62,600 nucleotides of DNA from Prochloron didemni P4-Papua_New_Guinea (GTDB taxonomy: Bacteria > Cyanobacteriota > Cyanobacteriia > Cyanobacteriales > Prochloraceae): assembly GCA_000252485.1 (NCBI GenBank), contig JH610983.1, positions 1 to 62,600 of the forward strand, written 5' to 3'. The notes below the pieces were generated by a model. The model was not told where the DNA came from and did no database searches. It saw only the letters and a list, made by a program, of their open reading frames with translations. This document shows positions 10,611 to 23,475 of the stretch, one piece after another (position 1 is the first letter of the stretch; every line of letters starts with the position of its first letter). A program made the position numbers and the translations under genes.

Positions 10611-11576
10611 TTACTCTACATCAGGACCAAAATTCTCCGAATCCAGGTTAATTCCCATTTCTAGCAAACGCTGGGCTAACTTTTCAGCTCGTAGGCGTTC
10701 CTTTTCAGCTCGCTGACGTTCAGTTTCAGCTCGCTGGCGTTCGCTTTCAGCTCGTAGGCGTTCGTTTTCAGCTTGCTGGCGTTCTTTTTCAACCTGTTGT
10801 TCTAAAGTTTCAGCTCGCTGGCGTTCAGTTTCAGCTCGCTGGCGTTCGTTTTCAACCTGTTGTTCTAAAGTTTCAGCTCGTTGTTGTTCAGTTTCAGCCT
10901 GTTGTTGGAAGGTTTTGATTGTGGTTTGTTCTTCTTTAATTAATTCCTCCACTATAGGAGGATTCAGCAGTTCTTTCACGGATAAAACTAGTTGTGAAAA
11001 CTGACTGGAAACAATTGTCTTTTCTTCCGTAAAATCTACAAAATCATATCCCTCTTCATTCCTAGTATTAGTAAACACCCTCACGAGTTTCTTTTTTGGG
11101 TCTACTATCCAATAGGAGGGAATTTTTGCTGTTTCGTATTCATCCCGTTTAATCTCGTAATCATCCCGCCGATTACTGCTGACAACTTCTACTACTAGAA
11201 TCGGCTGTTCTTCAAAATCCAAAACTCCAGCTCCTGGACGATGAAGAACTTGTTCCCAAACAGTTTTGCTAAATACTACCACATCTGGGATTCGAGATGT
11301 ATTTTCTTCCGTTCGCACTCCCGTTCCTAAAGCATTGGCCACTAAATCTAAGTTTTCCGCTGCAAAATAGCGCTGTAACTTATAAACCAAAAACTTGCAA
11401 ATATTGGTATGTAAGTGTGTGGATGCTGGCATGGGTATTAATTTTCCTTTCACTAACTCGTATCTAACATCCGATTCTGGAACATATTCAAGATATTCTT
11501 GGAAAGTTAACAGATGTTCAATTTTAGGCGGTTCATCTACCGTTATCTCGGTTGCTTTTTTGACAGCTTGAATCAT
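10611..11576 (-). CDS. Uma2 family (DUF820) endonuclease-like protein, copy 1
   Basis: PD-(D/E)XK-fold protein of the Uma2/DUF820 family, greatly expanded in cyanobacteria. Residues about 20-205 carry the fold: YELVKGKLIPMPAS, SRIPDVVVFSKTVWEQ and VVEVVSSNRRDDYEIKRDEY with the Glu-X-Val and downstream Lys/Tyr pattern. After residue 215 comes a repetitive coiled coil of ERQRAETLEQQVEN-type units, then a conserved tail LAQRLLEMGINLDSENFG. It is the downstream member of a tandem pair with 11689-12696. Cellular role is unknown. Confidence 0.88.
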   Translation of the reverse strand: MIQAVKKATEITVDEPPKIEHLLTFQEYLEYVPESDVRYELVKGKLIPMPASTHLHTNICKFLVYKLQRYFAAENLDLVANALGTGVRTEENTSRIPDVVVFSKTVWEQVLHRPGAGVLDFEEQPILVVEVVSSNRRDDYEIKRDEYETAKIPSYWIVDPKKKLVRVFTNTRNEEGYDFVDFTEEKTIVSSQFSQLVLSVKELLNPPIVEELIKEEQTTIKTFQQQAETEQQRAETLEQQVENERQRAETERQRAETLEQQVEKERQQAENERLRAESERQRAETERQRAEKERLRAEKLAQRLLEMGINLDSENFGPDVE

Positions 11577-11627
11577 TATTTAACCTCTCTCATATTAGCT
11601 GATTTGATTATTTTATCTAATATAGGA

Positions 11628-11656
11628 TTTACATTCTGTTAGTAAACAAATGTAAA
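11628..11656. terminator. Palindrome between the two Uma2 copies
   Basis: Second copy of the TTTACATT...AATGTAAA hairpin at 10548-10576, in the same position relative to its gene. With the following ATCAAATAAGATTTGGTAG it marks the edge of the duplicated unit. Confidence 0.4.
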
Positions 11657-11688
11657 CCCTATATCAAATAAGATTTGGTAGCGCTAAT

Positions 11689-12696
11689 TTACTCTACATC
11701 ACCACCAAAATTTTCCGAATCCAGGTTAATTCCCATTTCTAGCAAACGCTGGGCTAACTTTTCAGCTCGTTGACGTTCAGTTTCAGCTCGTTGACGTTCA
11801 GTTTCAGCTCGCTGGCGTTCAGTTTCAGCTCGCTGGCGTTCGTTTTCAGCTTGCTGGCGTTCGCTTTCAGCTCGTAGGCGTTCGTTTTCAACCTGTTGTT
11901 CTAAAGTTTCAGCTCGCTGGCGTTCGTTTTCAACCTGTTGTTCTAAAGTTTCAGCTCGCTGGCGTTCGTTTTCAACCTGTTGTTCTAAAGTTTCAGCTCG
12001 TTGTTGTTCAGTTTCAGCCTGTTGTTGGAAGGTTTTGGTTGTGGTTTGTTCTTCTTTAATTAATTCCTCCACTATAGGAGGATTCAGCAGTTCTTTCACG
12101 GATAAAACTAGTTGTGAAAACTGACTGGAAACAATTGTCTTTTCTTCCGTAAAATCCACAGAAGTATATCCTTCTTTATTCCTAGATTTAGTAAATACCC
12201 TCACGAGTTTCTTTTTTGGATCTACTATCCAATACTCGGGAATTTTTGCTGTTTCGTATTCATCCCGTTTAATCTCGTAATCATCCCGGCGATTGCTGCT
12301 GACAACTTCTACTACTAGAATCGGCTGTTCTTCAAAATCCAAAACTCCAGCTCCTGGACGATGAATAACTTGTTCCCAAACAGTTTTGCTAAATACTACC
12401 ACATCTGGGATTCGAGATGTATTATCTTCCGTTCGCACTCCCGTTCCCAAAGCATTGGCCACTAAATCTAAGTTTTCCGCTGCAAAATAACGCTGTAACT
12501 TATAAACCAAAAACTTGCAAATATTGGTATGTAAGTGTGTGGCTGCTGGCATGGGTATTAATTTTCCTTTCACTAACTCGTATCTAACATCCGATTCTGG
12601 AACATATTCAAGATATTCTTGAAAAGTTAACAGATGTTCAATTTTAGGCGGTTCATCTACCGTTATCTCGGTTGCTTTTTTGACAGCTTGAATCAT
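11689..12696 (-). CDS. Uma2 family (DUF820) endonuclease-like protein, copy 2
   Basis: Nearly identical to the neighbouring copy over the first 210 residues, with only scattered changes such as AATHLHTN for ASTHLHTN and a variable patch NKEGYTSVDFTEE. The coiled-coil region is longer by 14 residues (335 against 321 residues overall) because of extra QRAETLEQQVENER and QRAETER units. The same nucleotides upstream (ATTTAACCTCTCTCA) and downstream show that the whole gene plus flanks was duplicated in tandem, with later slippage in the repeats. Confidence 0.88.
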   Translation of the reverse strand: MIQAVKKATEITVDEPPKIEHLLTFQEYLEYVPESDVRYELVKGKLIPMPAATHLHTNICKFLVYKLQRYFAAENLDLVANALGTGVRTEDNTSRIPDVVVFSKTVWEQVIHRPGAGVLDFEEQPILVVEVVSSNRRDDYEIKRDEYETAKIPEYWIVDPKKKLVRVFTKSRNKEGYTSVDFTEEKTIVSSQFSQLVLSVKELLNPPIVEELIKEEQTTTKTFQQQAETEQQRAETLEQQVENERQRAETLEQQVENERQRAETLEQQVENERLRAESERQQAENERQRAETERQRAETERQRAETERQRAEKLAQRLLEMGINLDSENFGGDVE

Positions 12697-14333: not shown

Positions 14334-16004
14334 TTATTGTTTAGGTTGTACCGAATAAGCTCCCGTTTCCAAATCCACAGTAAAAGTATACCACCCACTA
14401 ACTTCTGGTGTAAACTGCAATGTGGGAGGATTTCCGTGATTAGTTAGCTGTCCGTAAAGTTTCAAATCTTCTATCCTGGAATTAGCAACATCAGGGTTAC
14501 GACCAGCAAAGTCTTCTCCGTGACCATCTAATTCGTAATCAGCAAATACCCAAAGCCAATTCCAATTGTTGACAGTATATTTATAGGTATAACTGCGATT
14601 AGCTTCTAATTCTACATCTTTGGTAAAGATACTATTCCCAACTCTTTCCATATTGTTAGCAGGATTATCTGGCTTCCACTCTACCAATGGAGCATCGAAA
14701 CTACCAACTAATTGCAAGGTGTCAATAGTGGGTAAAGCTTGGATAGCAATTTCTTCTGAATTTGAACTACTTTCATTTAACAATTCGATTGAAAAAGCAT
14801 CTTTATCTCCATCATAGGTAAATTGATACTTGCCACTTTTGATAACTTCAAACAAAACATTTTGCTCGTTAGGTTTACCATGCCAACCTAAACCCATCAA
14901 CTTGTGAGTTTTATCCGACTCTATCCAAGCACCTAAAGCCATTGTATCCAGAAAAAGCTCGTTACTAATGGCAAAGTTAGCACCATAAACTCCCGGTTGT
15001 AATTCTAGAGTTTTTTGCCAAATATTATCCTCGCAGTTGGCCATGTTTCGTCCCGGGTTAGTGGGTGCAAATTGGTCTTTTTCATAGAAAGTACCCAGCA
15101 ATTGAAAAGATTTGAGATCGTTCCATATTTTCACTGGTTCTATCCCTTCAGGAGACTTGACTTCAAACTTATATTGTTTCGGATTCATCCGAATAGTATA
15201 ATCAGCATCAGCAAATACTTGAATAGTGATGCCAGAATGCTTGCTTTGTCCTCCACTACTGCCAAATCCCGTACCGCCCACTAGAGTACCTTGACCGTCA
15301 TTATAAGCAGCAAATCCCCAGTCCTCATTGTGATTAACAGAAAAGAGGAACTGATACACTCCATCGGCGCGAAAATCGATACCTCCGTTAATTTTTAGAG
15401 GTACAGTCTTCTCCCACCAATCCCCATTTTTGGTCATTTCATGATTAGCACGAGTTTCATCAAATTTTTGGAACATATCCTCCTCGTCCCAGACAAAACC
15501 GTTAATTTGAATTGATTCAATTTCAGTTAAATAAGTCGGTTGCGGCGAAATATTAAATTTAAATTCTGTGGGATTGAAAGATATGGTATAAACACCGTCT
15601 TTCTCAATTTTAATGATAATATTCTGTGCTTTATTCGCGCCCTCGCCCGTTACTAATTTTGGTTCCCCTTTCTCACCCGTCTTATAGTGATTAGCTTTAA
15701 AAGACTCAAACAAGCTATGATTGGTTGTAAAACGAAAGGCGTAGATACCGTCCCTGTGACGACCACCATTAGCTCTTAATTCTACTTCTTTAGAGTATTG
15801 TGCACCATCTTTGGTCATGTCATTTTCCGGCAAAAACGGATTCCAACGACCCCGATTATTGTTGACCGTTCCCAATAACTGAGCGCTGGCAACAAATTCA
15901 GAAATTTCTGGGTTGGGAAGTACTGGGATTGCTGCGCCGTAAGTTTTCTTATTGATCAGTTCTGAGAAGTTGCTTGAATTATTAGTCATTTTTCTATTGG
16001 TCAC
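14334..16004 (-). CDS. Protein with four starch-binding-like repeats
   Basis: A 556-residue cytoplasmic-looking protein (no signal peptide) built from four related beta-sandwich-like units at about residues 38-150, 160-290, 295-405 and 420-556. Each starts with a pattern such as LQLVGSF, has W.P.NPANNM about 12 residues later, then a beta hairpin around ELEANRSYTYKYTVN, and ends FTVDLETGAYSV or equivalent. This resembles the X25-type or SusE-like starch-binding fold of amylopullulanases. No catalytic domain is seen. It precedes, on the opposite strand's coordinates, an AGE-epimerase-like gene, which suggests a carbohydrate theme; the function is otherwise unknown. Confidence 0.6.
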   Translation of the reverse strand: MTNRKMTNNSSNFSELINKKTYGAAIPVLPNPEISEFVASAQLLGTVNNNRGRWNPFLPENDMTKDGAQYSKEVELRANGGRHRDGIYAFRFTTNHSLFESFKANHYKTGEKGEPKLVTGEGANKAQNIIIKIEKDGVYTISFNPTEFKFNISPQPTYLTEIESIQINGFVWDEEDMFQKFDETRANHEMTKNGDWWEKTVPLKINGGIDFRADGVYQFLFSVNHNEDWGFAAYNDGQGTLVGGTGFGSSGGQSKHSGITIQVFADADYTIRMNPKQYKFEVKSPEGIEPVKIWNDLKSFQLLGTFYEKDQFAPTNPGRNMANCEDNIWQKTLELQPGVYGANFAISNELFLDTMALGAWIESDKTHKLMGLGWHGKPNEQNVLFEVIKSGKYQFTYDGDKDAFSIELLNESSSNSEEIAIQALPTIDTLQLVGSFDAPLVEWKPDNPANNMERVGNSIFTKDVELEANRSYTYKYTVNNWNWLWVFADYELDGHGEDFAGRNPDVANSRIEDLKLYGQLTNHGNPPTLQFTPEVSGWYTFTVDLETGAYSVQPKQ

Positions 16005-16035
16005 CTATTTTTTCGTAAATTAACAGCTTTAACCA

Positions 16036-16122
16036 TTGTAGGTTGGGTTGAGGCAACGAAACCCAACATCCAACGATGTTTATGTTGGCTTTCACTATCG
16101 CTCAACCCAACCTACGATACCA
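16036..16122. repeat. GTAGGTTGGGTTGAGG-type inverted repeat
   Basis: TGTAGGTTGGGTTGAGGCAACGAAACCCAAC, followed by CAACATCCAACGATG... and closing CTCAACCCAACCTACGA, forms a long imperfect inverted repeat of a widespread cyanobacterial type. Relatives occur at 23887-23925, 49133-49165 and 49930-49962. Confidence 0.65.
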
Positions 16123-16219
16123 GAGGTTCTAACAGCCGATAAATTTTTGTTTGAACCGCAGAGACGCCGAGGGCGCAGAGGAAGTCTGCGCTCATCTCTG
16201 TTTTTGGTGCGGTTAACCT

Positions 16220-18382
16220 CTATTCCACAACAATTTGGTCGTTTAATTGACTTTGTTCCAGGGCCTTCTTAACCTCTGCATTAGCACCAACAGCCTTGAC
16301 GGTTATCTCACCCTGACGTTGCTTGCCTTGGATAAAGAAGGCCAAACAACGTAAAGCCTGGGAGGAAATTGATTCCAAGTCATTCATGACGAAGACCAGG
16401 TTTGTTGCTTGCTGAATTTCCATGCGGTCAAATTCATCATCCAGCTCATTTAAGGCACCTTGACCTTCTAGCTTGCCACTGAAATCAATCTTAGCAGTGC
16501 CATTAACAGCTTCCAGCAAGGCAACTTCAAAATCAATGGCAGTGGGATAAATCCGTACTTTCACCTTAGTACCAGCAGGATATTTATCTGGTAGTTTGAC
16601 AGTGAGAGCTTTGGCATCAAAATCCTTATAGTCATGGCCATCAATCCAAACTTGCTTAATGCGAATGCTGTCTGGTGGTAGAATATCCGGTGCTACCCGC
16701 AGGATATTACCAGGGAAGCCCTCTGGTTGGGGCTTGAAGTAGAAGTCCATGGGCTCCTTAATAACCAGCAAGTTAGTGTAAATTGCTGCTAAGTAGCACA
16801 GCTCAAAGGAGTGGTAGCCCGCCATAGAATGGCTGCCTTTATCCCGTTCCGTACCTAGAGCGTAGGGCAGTCCATTGCCTAAAACGTTAAAGTACACCCC
16901 GCCAGCATAGTGGTCGAGGAAATAGGCATTGTAGAAGGAAGTACCTTCCCGAGCATAGCGGAGAAACTCATCTTTCAGTTCGTTCCCATAGACCCCAGCC
17001 ATGATGTAGTAAGCCAGGATACCTTGCTCTTGCTGCCACCAAGCTTTGCGATCATGCCAAGCATATTTGTGGAATTTGCCGAACTTCTTCACCCGTTCCA
17101 CCACATCGTACCAACCGCCGCGCTGGCGATCGCATCCTGCATCTGGGATAACAGTACCGATTTTTTCTGCCAGTTTCTGGTATTCCTGCTTGTCCTTCAG
17201 TCCGAACATGCGGGTCAAGTTCCAGGCGATTTTCAGGTTGTGTCCTACCACTGCCCGGTTTTGCTGCCAACCCCAAGTTTGGTCTTTGGACCAATCATCG
17301 AAAAACTTCTCTTGGACGAAGGGACTTTCATCGTAGTCGGGAAAATGTTTGACGATGGTGTCGAAAGTATATTCCAGGAAATCGGCGTATTCTTCCTTCC
17401 CAGTGGCCAGCCAGAGATTGATTAAATAGGCAGGAGCGTGGTCTCCTACAGAGTTCCAATTTTTTTTCGCCTTATTTTCTCCCAAAGATTCGCTGTGGGG
17501 GCTGAAGGTAATGGGGTCGATATGAGAATAGTAGCCCCCTTTGTCCGTATCGTCGTGGAAGTAGCGATGGAACAGTTCTACCGTTGTTTTGGCATCCTCC
17601 AAAATCCGGGGATCTCCCGTAATGCGGTAAGTTTGTACTGGACCTGCCAGAGCGTAAATCTGCTCGTAGCAAGGGATAGCATTATAGTCATCCCCAAATT
17701 CCGAGGCTAAGATTTTCTCTTCGGTACCATCGTCCTTAATATCGACGGCGTGATACCAGTAGCTAATACCCTCGCTCTTATCTTTAAAGCGCATGTGCTG
17801 GCGCAAGTATTCAGTACCTTTCTCAGCAGCTTCCAGGTAGCTATCTTCTCCCGTGATTAAATAGGCAGAAGCGAAACCATAGACTAGGCGGGAGATAGTA
17901 TCGGTTTCTTGCCGACCGCTTTTATGCTTGTTCCCTTCTATAGTTAGGTTGGTGCGGTATTTGCGGTAGTTAATTTTACCACCGTGATCCACATCGAACT
18001 CGTCGTTGAGGTAGAAATCAGCTAATTCCTTAACCTGTTTTAACCACCAATCTTGCTTTTCAAAGGAGTACTTATCAGAGCTACGTCCGGGGAAGAGGAT
18101 GCTTTTCGCCTCAAAGGGGTTGTCTCCATCTTGGGTGGGGTAGAAAATCCCATATGCCAGCATAAAGCGTCCGGGAGTGAGCATACCTCGTAGTTGGTCG
18201 GTTGCTCCTTGATATCCTTCTCCCAGGTTGCGTACCAGTTCGGCGTTGGTGAGATCCGTTAAATGGATGGTGTATTCGCGATCATCTGATGTTTTGACCT
18301 TGCAGGTATCTTTGTTTTTGTCATAGCTGGTGACATAACCTGCAATGAGGTCTGAGAACGTAAAATCAATTGCGTTTGCCAT
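16220..18382 (-). CDS. AGE-family epimerase-like protein with C-terminal STAS-like domain
   Basis: A 720-residue multidomain protein. Residues 1 to about 110 form a beta-rich N-terminal domain (IAGYVTSYDKNKDTCKVKTS). Residues about 120-540 form an (alpha/alpha)6 barrel of the N-acylglucosamine 2-epimerase type, with AVVGHNLKIAWNLTRM (the conserved Gly-His helix) and KAWWQQEQGILAYYIMAG. About 600-720 look like a STAS domain (AKIDFSGKLEG, then TNLVFVMNDLESISSQALRC), as in anti-sigma antagonists. I chose MANAIDFTF as start because GGAG lies nine bases upstream; a TTG start at 18397 is also open. The substrate is unknown; a sugar is likely. The STAS-like part suggests binding to a regulatory partner. 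Confidence 0.75.
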   Translation of the reverse strand: MANAIDFTFSDLIAGYVTSYDKNKDTCKVKTSDDREYTIHLTDLTNAELVRNLGEGYQGATDQLRGMLTPGRFMLAYGIFYPTQDGDNPFEAKSILFPGRSSDKYSFEKQDWWLKQVKELADFYLNDEFDVDHGGKINYRKYRTNLTIEGNKHKSGRQETDTISRLVYGFASAYLITGEDSYLEAAEKGTEYLRQHMRFKDKSEGISYWYHAVDIKDDGTEEKILASEFGDDYNAIPCYEQIYALAGPVQTYRITGDPRILEDAKTTVELFHRYFHDDTDKGGYYSHIDPITFSPHSESLGENKAKKNWNSVGDHAPAYLINLWLATGKEEYADFLEYTFDTIVKHFPDYDESPFVQEKFFDDWSKDQTWGWQQNRAVVGHNLKIAWNLTRMFGLKDKQEYQKLAEKIGTVIPDAGCDRQRGGWYDVVERVKKFGKFHKYAWHDRKAWWQQEQGILAYYIMAGVYGNELKDEFLRYAREGTSFYNAYFLDHYAGGVYFNVLGNGLPYALGTERDKGSHSMAGYHSFELCYLAAIYTNLLVIKEPMDFYFKPQPEGFPGNILRVAPDILPPDSIRIKQVWIDGHDYKDFDAKALTVKLPDKYPAGTKVKVRIYPTAIDFEVALLEAVNGTAKIDFSGKLEGQGALNELDDEFDRMEIQQATNLVFVMNDLESISSQALRCLAFFIQGKQRQGEITVKAVGANAEVKKALEQSQLNDQIVVE

Positions 18383-18782: not shown

Positions 18783-18925
18783 CTACGACAAACCATGGGT
18801 ATCTTTGAGCATGTCAGAGATTTTCTCCCCAATCATGGCGATCGCCCTATGGCAATTTCCCGATTGAACGAAGGGCATGACGCTGGCATCTGCCACCCTC
18901 ACTCCCCTAACCACCCAATATTGCC
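18783..18925 (-). pseudogene. C-terminal remnant of a GMC oxidoreductase
   Basis: A minus-strand frame reads WVVRGVRVADASVMPFVQSG, NCHRAIAMIGEKISDMLKDT, HGLS and stop at 18783. GVRVADASVMP-x-x-x-SGN followed by AMIGEK is the hallmark C-terminal motif of glucose-methanol-choline flavin oxidoreductases. Everything upstream is missing; the frame merges into the end of the NmrA-like pseudogene, with which it overlaps by a few bases. Confidence 0.75.
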
Positions 18926-19417
18926 AGATGATCTTGAACAAATTGGTCAAAAGATATGGGTTGTTTTTCAGCTATCTTACTGACGGAATCGGTTACTGTG
19001 GCTGCGTAACCCTTTTGATAAACCTGCTGGTAAAGTTCGTTAACCACATCCGCCACCCACTCGGATTGACCCCAGTTTATCAGGGATTCCTTGAATTGCT
19101 CTGGAGAGACATTTACATAAAAACTTGACAACGTATTTGGTATTCGAGCTTTTAGTTGCCTCAATAAAGTTACTTTGCCAATCCACCGCATTGGGATCTA
19201 TGGGGGGCAACATTAAAGCCTTCTCCACTCCTTTTAGAGCTGTTTTGAGCTTATCTGGATCGCTAAAATCCCCTTGGACAATTTCTACTCCCAGTTCAAG
19301 AAGCCACTTAGCTTTCTCTGGGTTTCTTACCAGGGCTCGCACCGCAACAGTTTTAGCTACAAGCTGTTTAACAATTTCACTGCCGCTAGTTCCAGTAGCA
19401 CCTGTTATCAAAATCAT
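18907..19417 (-). pseudogene. NmrA-like NAD(P)-binding protein, deleted and frameshifted
   Basis: The first about 95 residues are a good NmrA/SDR-a start: MILITGATGTSGSEIVKQLV with the GATGxxG nucleotide loop, then VRALVRNPEKAKWLLELGVE and SNFIEATKSSNTKYVVKF. The frame then degenerates and stops. The family's C-terminus (YVNVSPEQFKESLINWGQSE and, at the end, FDQFVQDHLAILGG) follows in a different frame down to 18907. About 100 central residues are missing and the two halves are out of frame. Confidence 0.8.
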
Positions 19418-20765: not shown

Positions 20766-22472
20766 CTATTGACCGCACCTAATCCCAATCATTTCTGGAT
20801 TAACATTAGCTTCCAAAACTACATCAATGAGAAATGGTCCGTTGTGAGCTAATGCTTGTTGAATAGCCGGAGCAATTTCTTCCGGTTGTTCAACTCGGAC
20901 GCTTTCCACTCCCAGAGACTTAGCAATTTCATCAAAGCGAATTGATGGCTTGGATAAATCGAAACTGAGGGGATAATCCCGAGCAGGTATGCCTCGTTCT
21001 TGCCAGTAAGCCTGAATATTGATTTGCAGCAGCTTGTAAGAACTGTTATTGCAAATAATAAACTTGGCATCTACGTTGTGACGAGCAGCAGACCAGAGAG
21101 CTTGGATTGTATACATGCTACCCCCGTCTCCCGCAACCCCAATGACAGTTTTATCGGGATTGGCCAATTTAGCGCCAATTGCCCCAGGAAGTCCTACCCC
21201 CAGGGAACCGCCTCGGGTAACGAAATAATGACCTGGTTGGCTTGGCTGTAGGTAGCGAGTCAGGTGGGGAGAACTGGTGAGACCTTCATCGAAGATAACA
21301 GCATCTTCTGGTAATTGAGCCACGAGTTCCTTAGCAAACTGAGAGAAATGGAGAGGAACGGCATTTTTGACCTTCAAATCTGCTGCCAATTCACTTTCGT
21401 GCTGCGCTTGTTTCCCCTTGCCAATTTCCCCAGTGCGAGCCTTTGCAGTTGCCTTCTGCTCCGGTGTCATCATGGCTTCTAAGATGGTAGCCAATTTCCC
21501 CAGAGACAGTTTGGGATCGCTCACCATACCGATATCCACAGGATGATTTTTGGCTATCTCATAGGCATCTAAATCTATATGAATCACCTTTGCACCAGGT
21601 TTAAAGATATCCCCCAGTTCCGGGAATACCTCGGGCAACATATAGGTGCCGCAGACTAAGTTGGCATCTCCTTTGGAAGTGATAGGCAAACTGGAATAGC
21701 CAAACATGTGTCCTGTAGAGCCTTGATAAAGGGGATGGCTGTAGCTCATGTTCAACTCCCCAGAATCTGCTGACCAAACCTCAGCTCCCAACAGTTCCGC
21801 AACCTGAGCTAATTCTTCTTGAGCCCCAGAGAAAGCAATGCCGTCTCCCACAAAAATCATTGGTTTTTCGGCAGCTACCAGCATTTGGGCTGCTTCTTGC
21901 AACAATGCTTCATCTGGCAGCACTTTAGTGGATGGGAAAGAGGTGGGTCTTACGGATTCAACTACGGGAGCATCCAAAATATCCACAGGCACACAAACAT
22001 ATACTGGTCCCATAGGAGGTGTGGTGGCAATTTTGATGGCTCGACGCACAATCCGCAACAGGGAGGATGGCTCCATGACCAAAGTGGACCATTTGGTGAC
22101 TGGTTCCGCCATGGCCACCAAATCTCCGGCCATTTGAGCATCCATGGCCTGATATTTAATGCCCGCATCTCCACCAATGACCACCAAGGGGGAATGACCC
22201 CGCTTTGCTTGGTAAAGTGCGCCGATGGCATTGCCCAAACCTGGAGTACTGTGAATTTGCACTAAGGCTGGCTTTTGAGTTGCCCGAGCGTAACCGTCCG
22301 CTGTCATCACAGCGATGGATTCTTGCAATGTCAAGATATATTTTAGGTTTGGGTAATCCCAGAGGGCATCCAAAAATCCTTCTTCTGATGTACCAGGGTT
22401 ACCGAACATGTGGTCGATTCCATCTGCCAGGAATTGCTCGAGAATGGCAAAGCGCCCAGTATTCTTACTCAT
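20766..22472 (-). CDS. Thiamine diphosphate-dependent decarboxylase-like enzyme
   Basis: A 568-residue member of the acetolactate synthase / benzoylformate decarboxylase superfamily. Visible landmarks are the catalytic-glutamate region YILTLQESIAVMTADGYARA in the N-terminal domain, a central domain starting AAEKPMIFVGDGIAFSG, and the ThDP/Mg motif AGDGGSMYTIQALWSAARHN ending IICNNSSYK. The likely reaction is decarboxylation of a 2-oxo acid; the sequence looks closer to benzoylformate decarboxylase-like proteins than to IlvB. Neighbours EthD and DJ-1, plus GMC, VOC and NmrA remnants, suggest a catabolic or detoxification cluster. Confidence 0.85.
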   Translation of the reverse strand: MSKNTGRFAILEQFLADGIDHMFGNPGTSEEGFLDALWDYPNLKYILTLQESIAVMTADGYARATQKPALVQIHSTPGLGNAIGALYQAKRGHSPLVVIGGDAGIKYQAMDAQMAGDLVAMAEPVTKWSTLVMEPSSLLRIVRRAIKIATTPPMGPVYVCVPVDILDAPVVESVRPTSFPSTKVLPDEALLQEAAQMLVAAEKPMIFVGDGIAFSGAQEELAQVAELLGAEVWSADSGELNMSYSHPLYQGSTGHMFGYSSLPITSKGDANLVCGTYMLPEVFPELGDIFKPGAKVIHIDLDAYEIAKNHPVDIGMVSDPKLSLGKLATILEAMMTPEQKATAKARTGEIGKGKQAQHESELAADLKVKNAVPLHFSQFAKELVAQLPEDAVIFDEGLTSSPHLTRYLQPSQPGHYFVTRGGSLGVGLPGAIGAKLANPDKTVIGVAGDGGSMYTIQALWSAARHNVDAKFIICNNSSYKLLQINIQAYWQERGIPARDYPLSFDLSKPSIRFDEIAKSLGVESVRVEQPEEIAPAIQQALAHNGPFLIDVVLEANVNPEMIGIRCGQ

Positions 22473-22611: not shown

Positions 22612-23475
22612 TTACCAGTTGTAGCGAGTCAGTCCTTGCTCCAGGACTTCAATTAATTTCTGGCCGCACTCATAAGAAGAAGCAGTGGAACGGCTGGTGA
22701 TAAAGGGATAATCTACCAGAACAGAAGTCACGTGACCTACTCTACCGATATATTCTCCATCCGGTCCTACAGCATCCCGGAGAATGTGTTCTAGAGGATA
22801 GAAGGGAGGACCGAAGTTGATATAACCGTCCCCAAATCCTGTGTTGGAGCCATCCGGAGCGTGGGGGCCTTCAAATCCAGTACCGTCCAGGTAGTCGTAA
22901 TCGGTAGGGTGTCCCGTAACGTGTTTGCCCCAAATAATGCTCCTCTTCTCTCTGAAGTCTCTCGCAAAAGCCAAGCAAGCAACACCATAGCACTCAGCAG
23001 CAATAGGTTTATTAAGCTGGTAAAAGCCCAGAATCAAATCGTGCAACCGCTGGTTATTGGCTAGATCTACCAAAGCACCACTGCCGCCAACAATGGTAAG
23101 AGCGTCGTAATTTACCAGTTCTTCTGATACTAGGCGATCTAGTTCTTTGTAATAGGCTTCCATATCTCTGAGATAGGTCTTAGAACTTGGATAAGCTCGC
23201 AGCGGAAACCAGTCGGCAAGGCTCTTGGGATGATCTAGTCGGCTCTCCTCATCTAACTTGCGGGTCTTTTCAGCATATTCTTTTGAGGTAACGGATCGAC
23301 CCAATGGGGGATCTGTGAAACCAGGCTGCATACTAACTGTCAGCGGTGTGGGTTTTTTACCCGTGGGAGTTACGAAGGTTATTTCATATCCCGCTTCATC
23401 GCATGCTTCCAGGGGACCAACTAGTTCTTCCCCCCAGTAACCCCACTCTGACACCACAAAAAGAATCTTTTTCAC
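22612..23475 (-). CDS. DJ-1/PfpI family protein
   Basis: A class I glutamine-amidotransferase-fold protein, 287 residues. It begins MKKILFVVSEWGYWGEELVG, where the Glu after the first strand is the conserved acid of the family, and has the nucleophile elbow IAAECYGVACLAFA with the catalytic Cys at about residue 162. The length and long insert (residues 55-110) resemble Hsp31-like or uncharacterised DJ-1 proteins with glyoxalase III or deglycase-type activity. It heads the minus-strand cluster with the ThDP enzyme and EthD, consistent with handling reactive aldehydes. Confidence 0.85.
   Translation of the reverse strand: MKKILFVVSEWGYWGEELVGPLEACDEAGYEITFVTPTGKKPTPLTVSMQPGFTDPPLGRSVTSKEYAEKTRKLDEESRLDHPKSLADWFPLRAYPSSKTYLRDMEAYYKELDRLVSEELVNYDALTIVGGSGALVDLANNQRLHDLILGFYQLNKPIAAECYGVACLAFARDFREKRSIIWGKHVTGHPTDYDYLDGTGFEGPHAPDGSNTGFGDGYINFGPPFYPLEHILRDAVGPDGEYIGRVGHVTSVLVDYPFITSRSTASSYECGQKLIEVLEQGLTRYNW

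Follow-up and report, generated by a model that had tools for sequence, protein, structure and literature searches.

A fusion of an AGE-type barrel with a STAS-like domain, encoded beside a four-unit X25-type protein in Prochloron didemni

The window analysed here is a stretch of 62,600 nucleotides from the cyanobacterium Prochloron didemni P4-Papua_New_Guinea (contig JH610983.1, positions 1 to 62,600, assembly GCA_000252485.1). Two neighbouring genes on its minus strand are the subject of this study: P1, which encodes a repeat protein of the starch-binding type, and P2, which encodes an AGE-type barrel protein with a STAS-like tail. Both open reading frames (ORFs) are present as the original prediction had claimed, and position 18382, the end that it gave, is the in-frame ATG of MANAIDF. 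The genes and the domains of P2 are as follows.

14334 to 16004, minus strand: P1, four-unit X25/SusF-like protein of the starch-binding type; ORF of 556 codons, about 540-556 amino acids
16220 to 18397, minus strand: P2, AGE-barrel/STAS fusion; ORF of 725 codons, likely start the ATG at 18382 or nearby
18092 to 18349, minus strand: P2 N-terminal OB-like beta domain, about residues 16-101 (DSSP on the AlphaFold2 model); conserved family-wide
16763 to 18049, minus strand: P2 (alpha/alpha)6 AGE-type barrel, about residues 116-544; conserved GDH, GHNLK and YHS.EL motifs
16544 to 16750, minus strand: P2 Ig-like beta domain, about residues 549-617; unfused relatives stop just beyond it
16223 to 16531, minus strand: P2 STAS domain of the Slr1859-position type, about residues 622-724; SISSQALR at the phospho-acceptor position

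The two genes are separated by about 215 bp, and their co-transcription is putative. Promoter and terminator scans of the locus gave hits at chance level only, and Rfam and tRNA scans found nothing inside either gene.

Domain composition of P2 and P1

Fold models of both proteins were built on alignments of the loci gathered in this analysis. The AlphaFold2 model of P2 has a predicted local distance difference test score (pLDDT) of 83.1 and a predicted template modelling score (pTM) of 0.86. Its barrel is nearest to glucose/mannose and cellobiose 2-epimerases (Foldseek E value of 5.2e-14 to 8h1l), and template modelling scores on the target of 0.7-0.8 against many structures of AGE and cellobiose 2-epimerases (CEs) place it in the AGE-type fold. 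H385 aligns with the GH-motif histidine of the P. heparinus AGE, and H528 with the YH of the S. thermophila CE. H319 (GDHAPA) was placed by motif position only, so that correspondence with catalytic histidines, which in RaCE are His184, His243 and His374 (PMC13281645), is partial. The OB-like N-terminal domain, which had been called unique, is present throughout the AGE family of P2 and is not specific to this protein.

The tail shows the STAS order of elements in the model across residues 622-724, and thus has the STAS fold. It scores 22.8 bits against the Pfam family PF01740 in the genomic search (cut-off 22.6) and 17.4 bits in the whole-protein scan, values for which "STAS-like" is an accurate label. 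The tail does not reach TIGR00377 (23.1 bits against a cut-off of 53.45).

P1 consists of repeat units at residues 36-152, 158-288, 292-410 and 425-555. Five of the six pairs of units are homologous by hhalign (probabilities of 95.8, 97.5, 95.6, 88.9 and 95.3%), while units 2 and 4 gave only 1.9% when compared directly. Unit 4 matches the Pfam family X25_BaPul_like with 29.7 bits (cut-off 27). The AlphaFold2 model, made from an alignment of only 8 sequences, is of moderate quality (pLDDT 72.9), and a fold search with it returned just two matches below an E value of 0.001: the X25-2 domain of R. bromii Sca5 (7rpy, E 4.9e-9) and SusF (4fe9, E 1.1e-7). Pfam/NCBIfam-type domain scans found no catalytic domain in P1, and no signal peptide is visible in the translations of P1 or its aligned relatives when these are judged by eye. 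Because no signal peptide is visible, P1 is probably cytoplasmic. The picture of a repeats-only protein beside a barrel with a STAS-like tail is thus borne out: structure prediction leads the repeats to X25/SusF folds and the tail to the STAS order of elements.

Relatives of P2 and the unfused operon

Relatives of P2 were identified in 37 of 386 cyanobacterial genomes of a phylum-wide sample and in 105 of 391 genomes of the window's order, a count that includes some distant paralogues. Beyond the cyanobacteria, Pseudomonadota, Bacteroidota, Selenomonadaceae, Armatimonadia and Chloroflexota have relatives as well. Among named organisms, Candidatus Paraprochloron terpiosi is closest to the window, with 92% identity. 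In P. terpiosi SP5CPC1 a stop or frameshift divides the AGE-STAS gene into two ORFs (L020 5023-6676), possibly an assembly error; this metagenome-assembled genome is 71% complete. The window's own genome holds a distant AGE-barrel paralogue on contig C533 (L002 1138-3462) of 774 codons, with 33% identity and no recognisable Pfam domain.

Many relatives are about 607 amino acids long and stop after the Ig-like domain, that is, where the STAS tail of P2 starts. The usual gene order around this separate form is DJ-1-like, AGE, a first STAS gene (STAS-A), GlgX, a second STAS gene (STAS-B), often PP2C, and a kinase; in several draft genomes the neighbourhood is interrupted by a contig end. Pfam confirms both STAS proteins, GlgX, a SpoIIE-type phosphatase with HAMP and an RsbW-like kinase (HATPase_c_2), and GlgX lies above its NCBIfam equivalog cut-off. 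This composition is that of the published icfG cluster of Synechocystis (slr1855-slr1861), which comprises the AGE protein Slr1855, the STAS protein Slr1856, GlgX1 (slr1857), the STAS protein Slr1859, IcfG (slr1860) and the kinase Slr1861 (PMC8670252, PMC12329169). The module can therefore not be called undescribed, as it had been, since its barrel, STAS proteins and GlgX match a known cluster. Two other suggestions hold up: GlgX or other GH13 genes adjoin AGE in most relatives, which gives the proposed alpha-glucan context, and the STAS, phosphatase and kinase genes of the relatives' operon provide the link to partner switching.

Origin of the fusion

In the tree of the AGE core, the fused forms make up one side of a single branch (17 rows, support 100/99), which indicates that the fusion is of single origin. 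The fused clade spans cyanobacteria, Competibacteraceae and Rhodobacterales. All 20 fused tails tested score higher with the profile of STAS-B, the STAS that follows GlgX, than with that of STAS-A, 19 of the 20 with a margin above 10 bits, and most share an aGLR.L.F.KQK-type core. Gene order, compared between 34 fused and 26 separate loci classed by ORF length, agrees: of the fused loci, 28 have GlgX upstream of AGE and none has it downstream, whereas 20 of the 26 separate loci have it downstream. If AGE became joined to the STAS gene behind GlgX, the fused order, with GlgX upstream, would result. By these sequence comparisons P2 is a natural fusion of the Slr1855-type barrel protein with the second STAS of the operon (the Slr1859 position). 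An origin of the tail from the STAS gene next to AGE (the Slr1856 position) is ruled out by profile scores and gene order. A literature search for a 2-epimerase joined to STAS in cyanobacteria found no text.

One locus (L150 8049-9932) encodes an AGE protein of 627 amino acids; GlgX lies upstream, and STAS, kinase and phosphatase genes are all absent from the vicinity. It is possible that this protein lost its tail secondarily.

Kinase loss and phospho-site drift

The operon-type kinase and the STAS-A gene are absent from all 34 fused loci, and are found in 22 and 24 of the 26 separate loci, respectively; because the fusion is a single clade, the fused-locus counts are not independent of each other, and Fisher values overstate their independence. 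When whole genomes were searched for matches above 150 bits to the operon's kinase, 17 of the 18 that have the separate form gave one, and none of the 10 with the fusion only did. The 18 include G123, which carries both forms and in which the kinase adjoins the separate one. Four Synechococcus-type fusion-only genomes (G342, G291, G257 and G324) gave no kinase match whatever at an E value of 1e-5. The expectation that kinase or phosphatase partners would co-occur with the tail is thus reversed: they accompany the unfused form, and fusion-only genomes lack the icfG-type kinase.

Each of the 50 stand-alone STAS proteins has Ser at the phospho-acceptor position. Among 43 distinct fused tails there are 23 Ser, 7 Thr, 7 Asp, 1 Glu, 2 Pro, 1 Asn, 1 Ala and 1 Val, so that Ser/Thr has been lost in 13; the window retains Ser (SISSQALR).

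These observations bear on two alternative views of the tail. It could be a working domain of the anti-sigma-antagonist type, with the barrel as a sugar sensor, by binding or turnover, and the tail titrating RsbW-like kinases elsewhere (PmgA-type or that of contig C452) and so altering transcription. The Ser or Thr of 30 tails, the window's SISSQALR among them, would be consistent with this, as would the RsbW-like kinase, PP2C and STAS genes elsewhere in the window's genome and a two-hybrid interaction between PmgA and Slr1859 in Synechocystis (cited in PMC12329169). Set against it are the lack of an operon-type kinase in every fusion-only genome tested, four of them with no match at all, the acidic or other non-phosphorylatable residues of 13 tails and the distance of the tail from the TIGR00377 cut-off; on balance we consider this view unlikely. 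Alternatively, the tail could merely be a structural or oligomerisation domain, with P2 a metabolic enzyme whose regulation was lost at fusion. A relaxed phospho-site and missing kinase and phosphatase would fit such a loss, and the AGE protein of L150 may have dropped its tail entirely. What argues in the other direction is that, ever since the fusion, the STAS domain and its conserved aGLR.L.F.KQK-type core have been retained in Cyanobacteriota, Pseudomonadota and Chloroflexota. We judge a merely structural role distinctly unlikely.

The X25 gene and its alpha-glucan context

An intact X25 gene of the P1 type is rare, with 4 of 386 genomes in the phylum sample and 8 of 391 in the order. All eight genomes of the order also carry the fused AGE-STAS gene, and X25 lies one or two genes downstream of it on the same strand, an arrangement that is kept across four families. 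The proposed co-occurrence of the gene pair is thereby upheld. It could still be that P1 and P2 are simply neighbours with no functional connection, given that X25 is absent from most fused genomes of the order (present in about 8 of 30) and that one exceptional genome, G370, has its separate AGE operon on one contig and X25 on another. However, chance adjacency would have to account for the shared place and strand in four families, for marine Synechococcus-type genomes in which X25 lies near the fusion on the opposite strand, and for all eight X25 genomes falling among the 105 of 391 with AGE (hypergeometric 2e-5, phylogeny not corrected). We regard the absence of any connection as very improbable.

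In G532, G580 and G397, a GH13 enzyme with CBM48 is encoded right after X25. The gene after X25 in L121-L123 was considered as GlgX, and this was ruled out, as it encodes another kind of GH13 enzyme, one that carries CBM48 and Alpha-amylase_C domains. A search for X25 units inside the X25-linked GH13 enzyme found none, and the window's genome yielded no close relative of that enzyme. It does encode GlgA and GlgP, which rules out a genome wholly without glycogen metabolism.

Neighbouring genes

Further upstream of P2, two genes were identified from domain scans and neighbourhoods.

20766 to 22472, minus strand: thiamine pyrophosphate (TPP)-dependent enzyme, benzoylformate decarboxylase/acetolactate synthase-like
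22612 to 23475, minus strand: large DJ-1/PfpI-type protein, which accompanies the TPP enzyme beside AGE genes in several phyla

Selenomonadaceae, Bacteroidota, Rhodobacterales and Armatimonadia also have this pair close to AGE genes. In the interval from P2 to the TPP enzyme region, two overlapping minus-strand ORFs (18907-19417) resemble an N-terminal and a C-terminal portion of a single NmrA-type NAD(P)-binding protein, and are probably a frameshifted gene. Immediately downstream of P1 (13542-14270, minus strand) lies a gene for a SLATT/DUF4231 protein of the two-transmembrane type; both P. terpiosi genomes have a relative of it, likewise downstream of X25. Further on (10611-12696, minus strand) is a tandem pair of nearly identical genes encoding 321 and 335 amino acids, with C-terminal QQAETEQQRAE-type heptad repeats that differ in length.

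Proposed mechanism

The best explanation, which we hold tentatively and at slightly less than an even chance, is that the target of the STAS subunit is the barrel protein, to which it is attached in cis here, in the vicinity of alpha-glucan. It draws on the domain composition, family identity, single origin, tail ancestry, kinase loss, phospho-site drift and X25/AGE/GH13 neighbourhood described above; binding of STAS to the barrel, the reaction or ligand, and docking on glycogen are parts that we infer. In the unfused operon, kinase and phosphatase would set the phosphorylation of STAS, and STAS in its unphosphorylated state would bind the barrel protein and switch it, in the way known for STAS proteins and diguanylate cyclases. 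STAS or STAS-like partner switches that act directly on enzymes are known in HsbA-HsbD, BgrV-BgrR and SiaC-SiaD (PMC8457831). In the fused lineage, with STAS in cis, the dedicated kinase gone and the constraint on the phospho-site relaxed, the barrel would be mostly fixed in one state, or tuned only by unrelated RsbW-like kinases in trans. It would act on or bind the reducing end of glucose or of maltodextrins released by neighbouring GH13 enzymes; because some cellobiose 2-epimerases accept maltose and maltotriose (PMC13281645), maltodextrin reducing ends are a plausible ligand by analogy. P1 would serve as a cytoplasmic alpha-glucan-binding adaptor that holds this activity near glycogen.

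Several points weigh against this explanation. The slr numbering was assigned by the published composition and order of the operon in Synechocystis PCC 6803. The Glu of the GHxxE motif of AGE enzymes is Lys in P2 (GHNLK, Lys388) and in at least 90% of 40 members, because of which the barrel may not be a standard epimerase and any reaction could differ. As 30 of 43 fused tails, including the window's, keep Ser or Thr, phospho-control may survive in fused forms, and the presence in the window's genome of a separate RsbW-like kinase/PP2C/STAS cluster on contig C452 (L129 6119-8263) makes phosphorylation of the P2 tail in trans possible. As the fusion arose once, kinase loss and the change of gene order may be a single correlated event. 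Finally, no GlgX1 orthologue was found in the window's genome or in the complete genome of P. terpiosi LD05, so that the GH13 link is missing in the window's own lineage.

The icfG cluster connects inorganic carbon and glucose metabolism, and for Slr1856 and Slr1859 of Synechocystis, both putative antagonists, the sigma factors that they target are stated as unknown (PMC12329169). The natural fusion suggests the AGE-like protein as the partner of the Slr1859-type STAS, a concrete candidate encoded in the same operon. A bolder reading, which we consider somewhat unlikely, is that the output of the icfG switch, at least through the Slr1859-type STAS, would be the AGE-like protein and not a sigma factor alone, with the fusion as a locked, kinase-free version, which a dedicated starch-binding scaffold in the cytoplasm keeps on glycogen. 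If true, partner switching would be extended to direct control of alpha-glucan metabolism in cyanobacteria, and P1, with its four X25 units, would be a cytoplasmic equivalent of the secreted scaffolds that bind starch. For the icfG-type switch, the fused genomes provide a comparison in which the kinase is lacking.

Comparison with known systems

The closest known arrangement is the icfG cluster, with which the window has in common an AGE-like protein and a STAS of the Slr1859 position, along with the GlgX found beside AGE in most relatives. AGE, two STAS, GlgX, PP2C and kinase stand together in that cluster, whereas the window has only AGE fused to one STAS as a single protein, with an added X25 protein; its locus has neither a stand-alone STAS nor a kinase or phosphatase, and the genome lacks a GlgX1 orthologue. 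P2 shares its barrel and, in part, the conserved His motifs with the AGE 2-epimerases (the glucose/mannose 2-epimerase Runsl_4512, 8h1l, and the cellobiose 2-epimerases 3wkf and 4z4l), but differs in its additional OB-like, Ig-like and STAS domains, the Glu to Lys replacement in GHxxE and an identity of about 18%. Its tail has the STAS fold and the phospho-acceptor-position Ser of SpoIIAA/RsbV-type anti-sigma antagonists (PF01740), but is joined covalently to a sugar-active-type barrel, falls under the TIGR00377 cut-off and has no adjacent cognate kinase or phosphatase. P1 resembles Sca5 X25 and Bacteroides SusE/SusF in fold, as starch-binding-type repeats without a catalytic domain; those proteins are secreted or surface-anchored, whereas P1 is cyanobacterial, shows no signal peptide when judged by eye and is probably cytoplasmic, has four units and is linked to an AGE-STAS gene. 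HsbA-HsbD, BgrV-BgrR and SiaC-SiaD resemble what is proposed for P2, in that a STAS or STAS-like protein acts directly on an enzyme, but their output is a diguanylate cyclase, and their subunits are separate and under phospho-control.

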